DNA of 64,000 nt from Lactobacillus kefiranofaciens (GTDB lineage: Bacteria > Bacillota > Bacilli > Lactobacillales > Lactobacillaceae): contig NZ_FMXC01000001.1 of the NCBI RefSeq assembly GCF_900103655.1, positions 124,001-188,000 of the forward strand, written 5' to 3'. The position numbers and the translations under genes are program-made. The notes under the pieces are model-generated. The model was given only the letters and a program-made list of their open reading frames with translations, ran no database searches and was not told the DNA's origin. Numbering within the stretch: position 1 is the first letter of the stretch; the number at the start of each line of letters is the position of its first letter. Below are positions 38,928 through 41,374 of the stretch, one piece after another.

Positions 38928-39104
38928 ATGGCTAAGACAATCGTTCACGAAAACGAGTCTATTGATGATGCTCTTCGTCGTTTCAAGCGTTCCGTTTCTA
39001 GAAGTGGTACTTTACAAGAATACCGCAAGCGCGAATTCTACGAAAAACCTAGTGTTCGTAGAAAGTTGAAGTCAGAAGCTGCACGTAAGCGTAGACATTA
39101 TTAA
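38928..39104 (+). CDS. rpsU: Ribosomal protein bS21
   Basis: The 58-residue very basic protein begins [20 protein letters not shown] and ends AARKRRHY, as in Firmicute bS21 of the 30S subunit. An AAGGAGGG site precedes ATG 38928. The conserved partner in many Firmicutes, yqeY, follows, but here an IS110 element lies between them. Confidence 0.96.
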
Positions 39105-39118
39105 TAATGTCTGCAAGG

Positions 39119-39147
39119 AGCTTGCCCAGAAATGGGTAGGCTTTTTG
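39119..39147 (+). terminator. Terminator after rpsU
   Basis: A 10-bp stem with two wobble pairs (39119-39128 with 39133-39142) has a GAAA tetraloop and T5. Confidence 0.85.
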
Positions 39148-39224
39148 TTTTCTACCCAAAGTCAAGGGTTATCAGTAGTTTAAAAAGAATTTTTTGCTTG
39201 TTATAGTGGTGCGAATAAGGCCAG

Positions 39225-39300
39225 ATAAAAACATAACAAGATGTGATAGGAAACACAAGTATCACAAAGAAGCCTATGATGTCTTGTAGTTTTTTCATAG
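39225..39300. other. Structured non-coding end downstream of the transposase
   Basis: Two interlocking inverted repeats are visible: GTGATA (39243-39248) with TATCAC (39260-39265), and an outer pair ACAAG..ATAGG with CCTAT..CTTGT. They could be an RNA fold or recombination-end structure of the IS110 element. No ORF lies here. Confidence 0.4.
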
Positions 39301-39333
39301 ACTGTTATACTGAAACTGATCATTTGATTTCAA

Positions 39334-40563
39334 CTAAAGTCTTTGATTATCTGTGGCTATGTTGTAATCATACAATTGATCATGTTTGATAAGAGCAAAC
39401 ATTGTGCGTATCAGTTTGTGGACTGATGCAATGGCGATCTTCTTATAGCCTTGGCTATTTGAAGATCGTTTTTTCTTATCATAGTAATCAGTGATATGAC
39501 AAGGCTGGGTAGTCTTTGTCGTCTCCATTTGAGTAATCGTTCGATAAAGAATTTTTCTGGCAATATGATTGCCATGCTTAGTGATGCCTAAATGACTGTC
39601 TTTTTCACCTGATTGATATCTTCCTGGATCAATACCAACGAAAGCATCAATTTGAGCTGAGGTATCAAAGCGTCTTAAGTTTCCCAATTCTGCTACTAAT
39701 CTAACTGCAGTAGTTTTGGCGATACCAGGAATACTTTCATAGATAGTTAAAGACCGTGCGTTTAGCTGTAAGACTAATTTCTCCATGTAATTAATCACAT
39801 TATTTCTTTCCGTACTTAAAGAAAGCAGATTGGCAATGTTACGCTGAATTGCGCGAATAGTAATACTTTTTTCAGTGTCGTACGGATATGCTTGTCTGGC
39901 TAAAGCATAGAGTCTAGTCGTTAAGTATTGTGCTCTTTGTCTGCCAATGCTTGAAATGGCTAACAGACTTTGAAAGACTTGAGTTTCATTGCGATTCAAG
40001 ACATATTGAGCATGTGGAAACAGACTGGCAATTGTCCAGTAAACTCTGCCAGACGGGACTGAAAGCAGACTTTCTAGCTGAGGAAAGGTTGACTGCAAAT
40101 TGCGATGAAGCTGGTTCTTATTAACCACTAAGGCTCGGGTAAGTTCTTCATAATAGCGACTTGCATTTTGTAGTTCATGGTACTCTCTAGATTGCGGCTG
40201 ACGCAGCTTCTGTGGCGCATTAAATTGAATTAAAGCTAAGCGATAAGCATCCACCTTATCGGTTTTATTATGGCGTAAATTGTTGTCCATCAGCTTTTTA
40301 GCTTTTAAAGGATTAAGCTTCAAGTACTTAATATGATAATCCTCTAAAAAAGCCTGCAGACTAAGCGAATAAACACCCGTAGCTTCAAAAACAACTAAAG
40401 GCGTGATCAAGTATTGATTTAAATGATCCAGCAGCTCCTGATAGCCGAATGAATCATTAGTAATCTTAAAAGTTTTGCCTTGCTTAACACGATCGATTAC
40501 TACACAAACTGTAGAAGATTTACTGCTAACATCAATGCCAAAGATAATATTTTGTTTCATCAT
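39334..40563 (-). CDS. IS110-family transposase (DEDD recombinase)
   Basis: The 409-residue enzyme has the N-terminal RuvC-like DEDD residues D11 (GIDVSS), E60 (VFEATGVY), D102 and D105 (TDKVDAYRLA). Its C-terminal domain has Ser318 in IDPGRYQSGEKDSHLGITKHGN, the conserved serine of the family. This combination is required by known IS110 recombinases, which act with an element-encoded bridge RNA. All motifs are intact, so it is probably active. It starts at ATG 40563 behind GGAGGTTAG. Confidence 0.93.
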   Translation of the reverse strand: MMKQNIIFGIDVSSKSSTVCVVIDRVKQGKTFKITNDSFGYQELLDHLNQYLITPLVVFEATGVYSLSLQAFLEDYHIKYLKLNPLKAKKLMDNNLRHNKTDKVDAYRLALIQFNAPQKLRQPQSREYHELQNASRYYEELTRALVVNKNQLHRNLQSTFPQLESLLSVPSGRVYWTIASLFPHAQYVLNRNETQVFQSLLAISSIGRQRAQYLTTRLYALARQAYPYDTEKSITIRAIQRNIANLLSLSTERNNVINYMEKLVLQLNARSLTIYESIPGIAKTTAVRLVAELGNLRRFDTSAQIDAFVGIDPGRYQSGEKDSHLGITKHGNHIARKILYRTITQMETTKTTQPCHITDYYDKKKRSSNSQGYKKIAIASVHKLIRTMFALIKHDQLYDYNIATDNQRL

Positions 40564-40599
40564 TCTAACCTCCAAGTGAAGATAAATAGTTTTATCAAC

Positions 40600-40817
40600 C
40601 TACTAGTTCTCATTTTCTGAACTCGGCATCAAGTGCCCACAGACTTCGAAGAGACTTATAAATAGGCGGTAAAGCAGTCCGTTTTGCTTACGACATCAAG
40701 TGTTGAAAAAAGCGAAGACTTTATTTGCTTTATTTTCACTTTCTATTTTAAACAAAAAGTGCCAGATCATGAATCCGTCGATTCACGATCCAACACTAGG
40801 TTAGTATGTTTTGCTTG
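40600..40817 (-). ncRNA. Candidate IS110 bridge RNA region
   Basis: The 250 bp upstream of the transposase start hold no ORF but good structure. There is an 11-bp hairpin with a GACG loop at 40765-40790 (GATCGTGAATC arm, minus strand), a bulged hairpin at 40667-40692, and the 9-mer CATCAAGTG twice (40627-40635 and 40694-40702). In characterised IS110-group elements the bridge RNA is encoded upstream of the recombinase. The assignment here is inference; I cannot map the guide loops. Confidence 0.4.
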
Positions 40818-40930: not shown

Positions 40931-41374
40931 GTGAGTTTGTCAGATAAAATCATGGCTGATATGAAATCAGCTATGAAGAATCACGATAAGACTACTCTTA
41001 ATACTGTTCGGATGATTAAGTCGGCTTTGATGAATGAAAAAATCAAGGCAGGTCACGACTTAACACCGGATGAAGAATTAACAGTTCTTAATCGTGAGAA
41101 GAAGCAAAGAGAAGAATCAATCGCTGAGTTTGCTAAAGCTAAACGCGATGATTTGGCTGAGGAAACTAAGAAAGAATTAGCAGTAGTTGAAAAGTACATG
41201 CCTAAGCAAATGAGCAAGGATGAACTTGAATCTGCCGTTAAGGAAACGATTGATGAAGTTGGTGCCAAAGGCAAGTCCGATTTCGGTAAGGTGATGAAAG
41301 CCCTAATGCCTAAAATTAAGGGACGTGCTGATGGTAAAGCTGCTTCACAAGCAGTGCGTGATCAGCTGAATTAG
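40931..41374 (+). CDS. yqeY: YqeY/GatB-domain protein
   Basis: The 147-residue protein matches the YqeY family, a stand-alone GatB/YqeY domain that may bind tRNA or assist aminoacyl-tRNA amidation; its exact role is unknown. It contains LNTVRMIKSALMNEKIKAG, VEKYMPKQMSKDEL and FGKVMKALMPKIKGRADGK. GTG 40931 is preferred because the AAGGAAGG site at 40914-40921 touches the in-frame ATG 40922 and is well spaced from GTG. phoH follows after 22 bp. Confidence 0.9.
   Translation: MSLSDKIMADMKSAMKNHDKTTLNTVRMIKSALMNEKIKAGHDLTPDEELTVLNREKKQREESIAEFAKAKRDDLAEETKKELAVVEKYMPKQMSKDELESAVKETIDEVGAKGKSDFGKVMKALMPKIKGRADGKAASQAVRDQLN

Follow-up and report, generated by a model that had tools for sequence, protein, structure and literature searches.

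The DNA analysed here (the window) is a stretch of 64,000 nucleotides from Lactobacillus kefiranofaciens (contig NZ_FMXC01000001.1, positions 124,001 to 188,000). It contains an IS110-family element resembling ISLhe4, with about 248 bp of non-coding DNA upstream and about 185 bp downstream of the transposase gene (tnp), which codes for a DEDD/Ser recombinase. An earlier note on this DNA had proposed that the upstream flank encodes a bridge RNA, and such an RNA is very probably encoded there. Judged from sequence comparison, the best explanation of the whole is that the flank codes for a bridge RNA (seekRNA) acting with the adjacent recombinase, for which we estimate a probability of roughly 0.86. 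This reading is carried by a conserved, covarying fold in related copies, by guides matching the insertion sites across copies, by the order of these guides in the target loop, by the ends of the element and by an enrichment of hairpins at the target.

Fold and guides of the predicted bridge RNA

The fold was obtained with RNAalifold, unguided, on an alignment of 15 related left ends. The consensus comprises 49 pairs, 21 of which show compensatory changes on both sides. Compared to shuffled alignments, more pairs were changed on both sides (22 against 14.2) and the covariation score was higher (0.413 against 0.213). Slid versions of the structure scored 0.02–0.10 and had 30–44% paired cells, compared to 96.0% for the fold itself, which is favoured in this comparison as it was derived from the same alignment on which it is scored. 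The fold consists of an 18-bp 5' stem-loop, a target-binding loop and a donor-binding loop (Table 1). Both loops carry an apical stem-loop, and the target-binding loop also has a basal stem. A search of the whole window against Rfam yielded no family at its gathering score.

Most structural features pointed out in the earlier note are found again in this fold. The 11-bp hairpin with a GACG loop (40765–40790) is present on the tnp strand and forms the tip of the conserved 18-bp stem (40758–40797). The repeated 9-mer CATCAAGTG, present at 40627–40635 and 40694–40702 and thus 67 bp apart, corresponds to the apical stem-loops of the donor and target loops. The bases of a bulged hairpin described at 40667–40692 can pair in the window copy, but this hairpin does not belong to the conserved fold. 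In the alignment, the 3' strand GCTTTACC of the hairpin is paired instead with a more 5' TAAAGC (with one A-U to G-C exchange), and the 5' strand corresponds to the variable left target guide, so that the noted pairing is one of the left guide with the basal stem in the window copy. The flank was also correctly described as free of open reading frames, since none of at least 50 aa was found besides the first bases of the tnp frame, for which a TTG start is possible at 40575.

Two segments of the target loop follow the DNA next to each copy. A total of 78 left ends were collected, 58 of them with a target loop; the other 20 (cut, diverged or without the RNA) were not scored. With the inner end of locus L129 dropped, for which no stem-loop was called, 57 insertions were available. 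The left target guide (LTG) agreed with the copy's own left flank at 4.12 of 6 positions, compared to 2.59 ± 0.19 after shuffling (21 distinct guides; 0 of 20,000 shuffles). The right target guide (RTG) scored 0.553 against its own right flank, compared to 0.341 ± 0.047 (38 insertions, 14 guides; 1 of 20,000 shuffles). A smaller, partly overlapping set of 46 insertions (47 before the spurious row L142 was dropped) gave 4.35 of 6 against 2.26 for the LTG (23 loop types, 15 distinct guides) and 3.31 of 5 against 1.94 for the RTG (10 types), each with 0 of 20,000 shuffles. When all positions were scanned against the left flanks, the LTG was the sole strong peak (z = 8.5, next 3.5).

The same agreement is seen within single genomes. 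All eight copies with the left guide TAAAAG in genome G010 sit after AAAG, all five with TAAGCA in G005 after AGCA and all six with TAAATA in G049 after ATA. An element of Lactiplantibacillus plantarum, located on a plasmid (L167) and with a protein of 48% identity, carries CCTTAAAAC both in its guide and at its left junction, and its right junction AAACTTCTT is the complement of the guide; counting core and end bases, this amounts to 9 nt per side, and the RTG–LTG order is kept. The copies hence share a structured RNA of conserved fold whose target loop matches the target, as is characteristic of bridge RNAs or seekRNAs, in the window copy by the left guide only (five of six bases equal to the left flank). 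Complementarity of loop bases to the target, as anticipated in the earlier note, is therefore found across copies well above shuffles; the right guide of the window copy does not match in register.

The fold alone could also belong to a structured leader at the 5' end of tnp, which would control its translation or transcription (as an attenuator or a read-through terminator) without guiding integration. The flank immediately precedes the tnp start, and on the tnp strand the 18-bp stem-loop with its T-run is similar to an intrinsic terminator. Such a leader does not explain why two segments track the flanks of each copy (0 and 1 of 20,000 shuffles), and we consider it very unlikely in this exclusive form, although both roles could coexist.

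In all 57 scored copies, the RTG was read 5' and the LTG 3' of the apical stem-loop, and this frame beats shuffles on both sides. In the donor loop, the putative order is right donor guide (RDG), stem-loop, left donor guide (LDG). Two known elements served as controls for the reading. ISEc21, analysed by script, showed a left match (5 nt) before a right match (8 nt), which is the opposite order. ISEc11, read by eye with the target taken from PMC11187229, showed CAGTATTTT – GGGCTTGAAGTCC – GTGAAAAT as RTG, 13-nt stem-loop and LTG. Both results accord with the statement that the guide order is reversed in the IS1111 elements studied compared to IS110 (ISEc21), for which differing mechanics were suggested (PMC11187229; this paper, like PMC11208160 and PMC11208158 below, is cited for the part available to us).

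The sequence GCTTT, 3' of the LTG, was considered as a right guide matching AAAGC and rejected. It shows hardly any variation and forms the 3' strand of the basal stem, in which four of six pairs are invariant and one shows A-U to G-C exchanges. On account of GCTTT the RNA might pass for an ordinary IS621-type bridge RNA that begins with the left guide, and the order given here for a misreading, but the varying segment that tracks the right flanks is 5' of the stem-loop and the same reading reproduces, for ISEc21 and for ISEc11, the order known from the literature. We consider this explanation very unlikely.

The RDG of relatives (AGTATGTTGG, AGTATGTT) is complementary to AACATACT in the left end. 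The AGAAAA of the LDG matches the right end GTAGAAAA. Pairing of both donor guides with the ends of the element is thus plausible, and the following mechanism is proposed. The RNA would be transcribed from a promoter that arises where the ends meet in a circular form and, bound by the recombinase, would join donor and target DNA. Read 5' to 3', its first loop would present the RTG, a 13-nt stem-loop and the LTG, and its second loop the RDG, a similar stem-loop and the LDG. Right guides would pair with the top strand and left guides with the bottom strand, with the core at each 3' end, and strand exchange would take place inside a shared AAA.

Several observations weigh against this reading. 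In the scan of all positions against right flanks, no clear peak was obtained (RTG z = 3.2, a same-strand position 3.3), perhaps because the length of the A-run blurs the register. In the window copy, the RTG does not match in register: past the A-run, GCG in the guide is set against CAAAA in the flank, with 0 matches. At most three of six left-guide positions match in 9 of the 58 copies (L009 outer, L015, L028, L045, L048, L070, L123, L129 outer and L140). The RDG of the window's lineage shows mismatches to its own left end, and the donor guides were judged by complementarity, as the donor ends barely vary. In addition, the candidate −10 box of the putative promoter (TAACCT) is weak, and the left match in the ISEc21 control is just 5 nt long.

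Terminator targets and nested insertions

The target had been placed in the gap between rpsU and yqeY. More exactly, as judged from uninterrupted relatives, it is the T-tract of the rpsU terminator. Hairpins are also enriched at the right flanks of other copies. A hairpin opens at the junction in 21 of 48 distinct right flanks, compared to 48 of 407 AAAAG sites (p = 3e-7), 23 of 188 AAAAAG sites (p = 4e-6) and 7 of 55 AAAAAAG sites (p = 4e-4). In a stricter test for a hairpin followed by a T-tract, 14 of 48 right flanks were positive, compared to 12 of 219 NAAAAG sites (p = 1e-5). In both tests, all control sites were taken from host DNA within the window. Several of the 48 sites come from the same genome or lineage as others, and the site L162 adjoins the end of another element; the two sets of 48 differ slightly, as the hairpin-only set adds L167 and omits nested right ends. 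The window's own site is negative in both automatic tests because a C interrupts its A-run.

Many bacterial terminators consist of an A-tract, a GC-rich hairpin and a T-tract. In many lineages the right guide specifies an A-tract followed by G and therefore leads to such sites. These guides would steer insertion to the edge of the terminator hairpin, a harmless place. Insertion at this edge keeps the hairpin, which could end the element's own transcript. In the literature searched, we did not find terminator targeting by IS110 elements reported. If the proposal is true, a guide leading to terminators is a natural solution to the problem of harmless insertion.

The enrichment may alternatively reflect survival only, with insertions elsewhere having been lost and guides that are not tuned to terminators. 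The automatic test found no hairpin at 27 of the 48 sites, and the right guides specify just an A-run and a few bases. The enrichment nevertheless persists against control sites with the same A-tract and G (12–13% positive), a control that does not remove selection against insertions in genes. We regard survival alone as a serious possibility, although we incline against it.

A sister lineage has a different target. Its left guide reads TTTTAG (in one copy with a base missing), and all four left ends found are located in the LDG of the bridge RNAs predicted for other IS110 elements (L043:646, L044:2254 on the minus strand, L124:2326 on the minus strand and L129:2014 on the minus strand; three in genome G005, one in G028). 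The insertion points follow GTTTAG (GTTTAG^AAAATTAGAT) or GTTGAG, and the right guide of the lineage matches AAATTAGA. In the two copies with readable right ends, L043 and L044, the right flanks continue with the rest of the invaded donor guide. The lineage's own donor guide AAAATAAGAAT shows two mismatches to its right guide. A nested insertion presumably disables the host element.

Taken together, these results can be combined into one picture. The Lactobacillaceae lineage would be intermediate between the IS110 and IS1111 groups, and the A-tract and hairpin edge of terminators would serve as a genome-wide safe harbour. One lineage would have been re-aimed at the near-invariant LDG of its relatives, disabling competitors while its own donor guide is spared by two differing bases, which would amount to an RNA-guided transposon conflict. 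We put this combination forward tentatively, as a conjecture that may well fail in one of its parts. With the nested lineage, RNA-guided competition of transposons could be tested directly in harmless lactic acid bacteria.

The element, its ends and its recombinase

The element is placed, with tnp on the minus strand, between two genes that were recognised by eye and that we take to be rpsU (38928–39104) and yqeY (ending at 41374). A second copy in the same genome scores 1868 bits, and a copy on an L. kefiranofaciens plasmid scores equally. In a survey of 75 genomes of the genus, element matches were found in 38, many of them partial, and the left-end sequence pattern matched in 26 of the 75. 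A longer left-end pattern yielded 18 stretches in a scan of genome contigs. The left-end motif was also observed in records named Faecalicatena, Clostridium and Avigastranaerophilus (L109, L112, L114, L117, L120), which may reflect transfer or contaminated assemblies.

Table 1 Positions in the window of the element, its target and the parts of the predicted bridge RNA
Feature	Position	Strand	Basis
Predicted bridge RNA, ~200 nt	40598–40797	−	Consensus fold with covariation, 15 left ends; exact termini presumed
5' stem-loop, 18 bp, GACG loop, then T-run	40758–40797	−	8 of 18 pairs changed on both sides
Target-binding loop, basal stem, 5' strand	40717–40732	−	Consensus fold
RTG CGCTTTTTTC	40705–40714	−	In related copies this segment follows the right flank
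Target-binding loop, apical stem-loop AACACTTGATGTC, one 9-mer copy	40692–40704	−	Covariation
LTG TAAGCAAAAC	40681–40690	−	5 of 6 bases equal left flank; set-wide test 0 of 20,000
Target-binding loop, basal stem, 3' strand	40670–40679	−	Consensus fold
Putative RDG AGTCTGTGG	40637–40645	−	Complementarity read by comparison
Donor-binding loop, apical stem-loop GGCACTTGATGCC, other 9-mer copy	40625–40637	−	Covariation
Putative LDG TTCAGAAAATG	40611–40621	−	AGAAAA common with right end GTAGAAAA
IS110-family element, ISLhe4-like	39149–40811	−	One AAA core copy per end included; ends set from related copies
AAA core, left end, then CATACTAACC	40809–40811	−	Left-end alignment
AAA core, right end, GGGTAG before it	39149–39151	−	Right-end alignment
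Candidate −35, conserved TTGACT in right end	39160–39165	−	Kept in otherwise diverged right ends; putative promoter at circle junction
Candidate −10, TAACCT in left end	40798–40803	−	Position; weak consensus match; same putative promoter
DEDD/Ser recombinase, 409 aa	39334–40563	−	Pfam; alignment with IS621 and ISCro4
Target: hairpin and T-tract of the rpsU terminator, directly next to the right end of the element	39120–39146	+	Uninterrupted terminators with GCTTTTTGTTT(T) in L074, L076, L077

The ends were set by alignment of related copies. Copies at different places agree, with small variations, in the left end AAACATACTAACC and in the right end TTGACTT..GGGTAGAAA, and the base preceding AAA differs with the target. 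The nested insertions L043 and L044, for which both flanks are known, were compared by hand with uninterrupted relatives (GTTTAGAAAATTAGA); they imply a putative donor junction of GTAGAAAACATAC and an exchange inside the shared AAA that would create no further duplication. The same arithmetic, applied to the window copy, results in the empty site GGCTTTTTGTTTTGCTTGATT (plus strand). This agrees with the uninterrupted rpsU terminators GCTTTTTGTTTTC and GCTTTTTGTTTTA of relatives L076 and L077.

The 5' stem-loop with its T-run (40750–40797, minus strand) resembles an intrinsic terminator. Speculatively, it might stop read-through into the integrated copy, which transcripts of a circle promoter starting inside the stem would escape.

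Two more left-end fragments of a related lineage are present in the same genome (L003:11–90 and 1236–1260, contig C30), one of them at the contig end. At L121:1118–1183, two left ends that face each other make up a nearly palindromic sequence around the 5' stem-loop, and no transposase was seen there; this pair apparently is a solo remnant or one resembling a miniature inverted-repeat transposable element (MITE).

The recombinase is intact, as the earlier note had stated, with matches to DEDD_Tnp_IS110 (E = 2.4e-32) and Transposase_20 (E = 5.4e-20). In an alignment with IS621 and ISCro4, the catalytic D, E, D and D positions and the serine align (motif GIDPGRYQSG). Both domains together with the SG motif identify it as a member of the IS110 family. 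The best match among plasmid proteins is 91.7% identical and annotated as 'ISLhe4 family'. In a tree of 16 transposases, a Lactobacillaceae clade of 10 (98/99) and a group of ISEc11 and IS4321 (100/99) were recovered; branches are long, and the relation between the two was not resolved in this tree.

A more distant IS110 element of Enterococcus faecium (416 aa, 26.9% identity) adjoins CAT...TTTCCTCC or similar sequences (L169:575–620, same place in L175–L178). Read in reverse, these sites resemble gene starts that carry ribosome-binding sites. The element has a clear left guide, a matching 9-mer TTTCCTCCT in its upstream region (L169). Its right guide could not be placed and therefore its guide order is not readable.

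Comparison with known RNA-guided elements

With IS621 and the IS110 group (Durrant 2024; Hiraizumi 2024), the element shares a DEDD/Ser recombinase, an RNA upstream of tnp in a long left end (the long upstream non-coding region of the IS110 group), a 5' stem-loop, internal loops for target and donor, and guides for the top and bottom strands. In IS621, the left, bottom-strand guide comes first, with the orders LTG–stem–RTG and LDG–stem–RDG and a CT core (PMC11208160; PMC11208158), whereas the orders here are RTG–stem–LTG and, for the putative donor guides, RDG–stem–LDG, with a core within AAA. The LTG does not precede the RTG as it does in the ISEc21 control. Matching of the target-loop guides shows the order to be that of IS1111 and not that of IS621. 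The recombinase of IS621 has 328 aa, compared to 409 aa here, a length that fits the subgroup of IS110 itself (395–455 aa, PMC11187229).

The order of RTG followed by LTG is shared with the IS1111 group (ISEc11, ISPa11, ISKpn4; Siddiquee 2024, PMC11187229). In ISEc11, the guides likewise flank a 13-nt stem-loop with a CTTGA stretch. IS1111 elements extend 7 bp to the left and 3 bp to the right of their subterminal repeat (PMC11187229), to which AAACATA and AAA fit. Their repeats are 7–17 bp, usually 11–13 bp, and near perfect, whereas the repeat here is short and imperfect (CTAACC/CTACCC) and resembles that reported for IS110 elements (PMC11187229). IS1111 proteins are of 330–350 aa, unlike the 409 aa found here, and IS1111 RNAs are mostly located downstream of tnp, in contrast to the upstream position in the window (PMC11187229). 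Exceptions in position are known, as some IS1111 relatives have upstream and some IS110 relatives downstream non-coding regions (PMC11187229).

Likeness to ISLhe4 is known from database annotation alone, by way of the plasmid copy mentioned above, and we found no guide analysis of ISLhe4 in the literature searched, which included PMC9208149. In the same literature we found no upstream bridge RNA with the IS1111 order; one may stand among the six further examples of PMC11208160, outside the part available to us. An upstream RNA with this order indicates that guide order and RNA position are not tied to each other, and it adds a natural design for programmable recombinases. The element is of mixed type within a known RNA-guided family, in which it combines the guide order of IS1111 with the RNA position of IS110.
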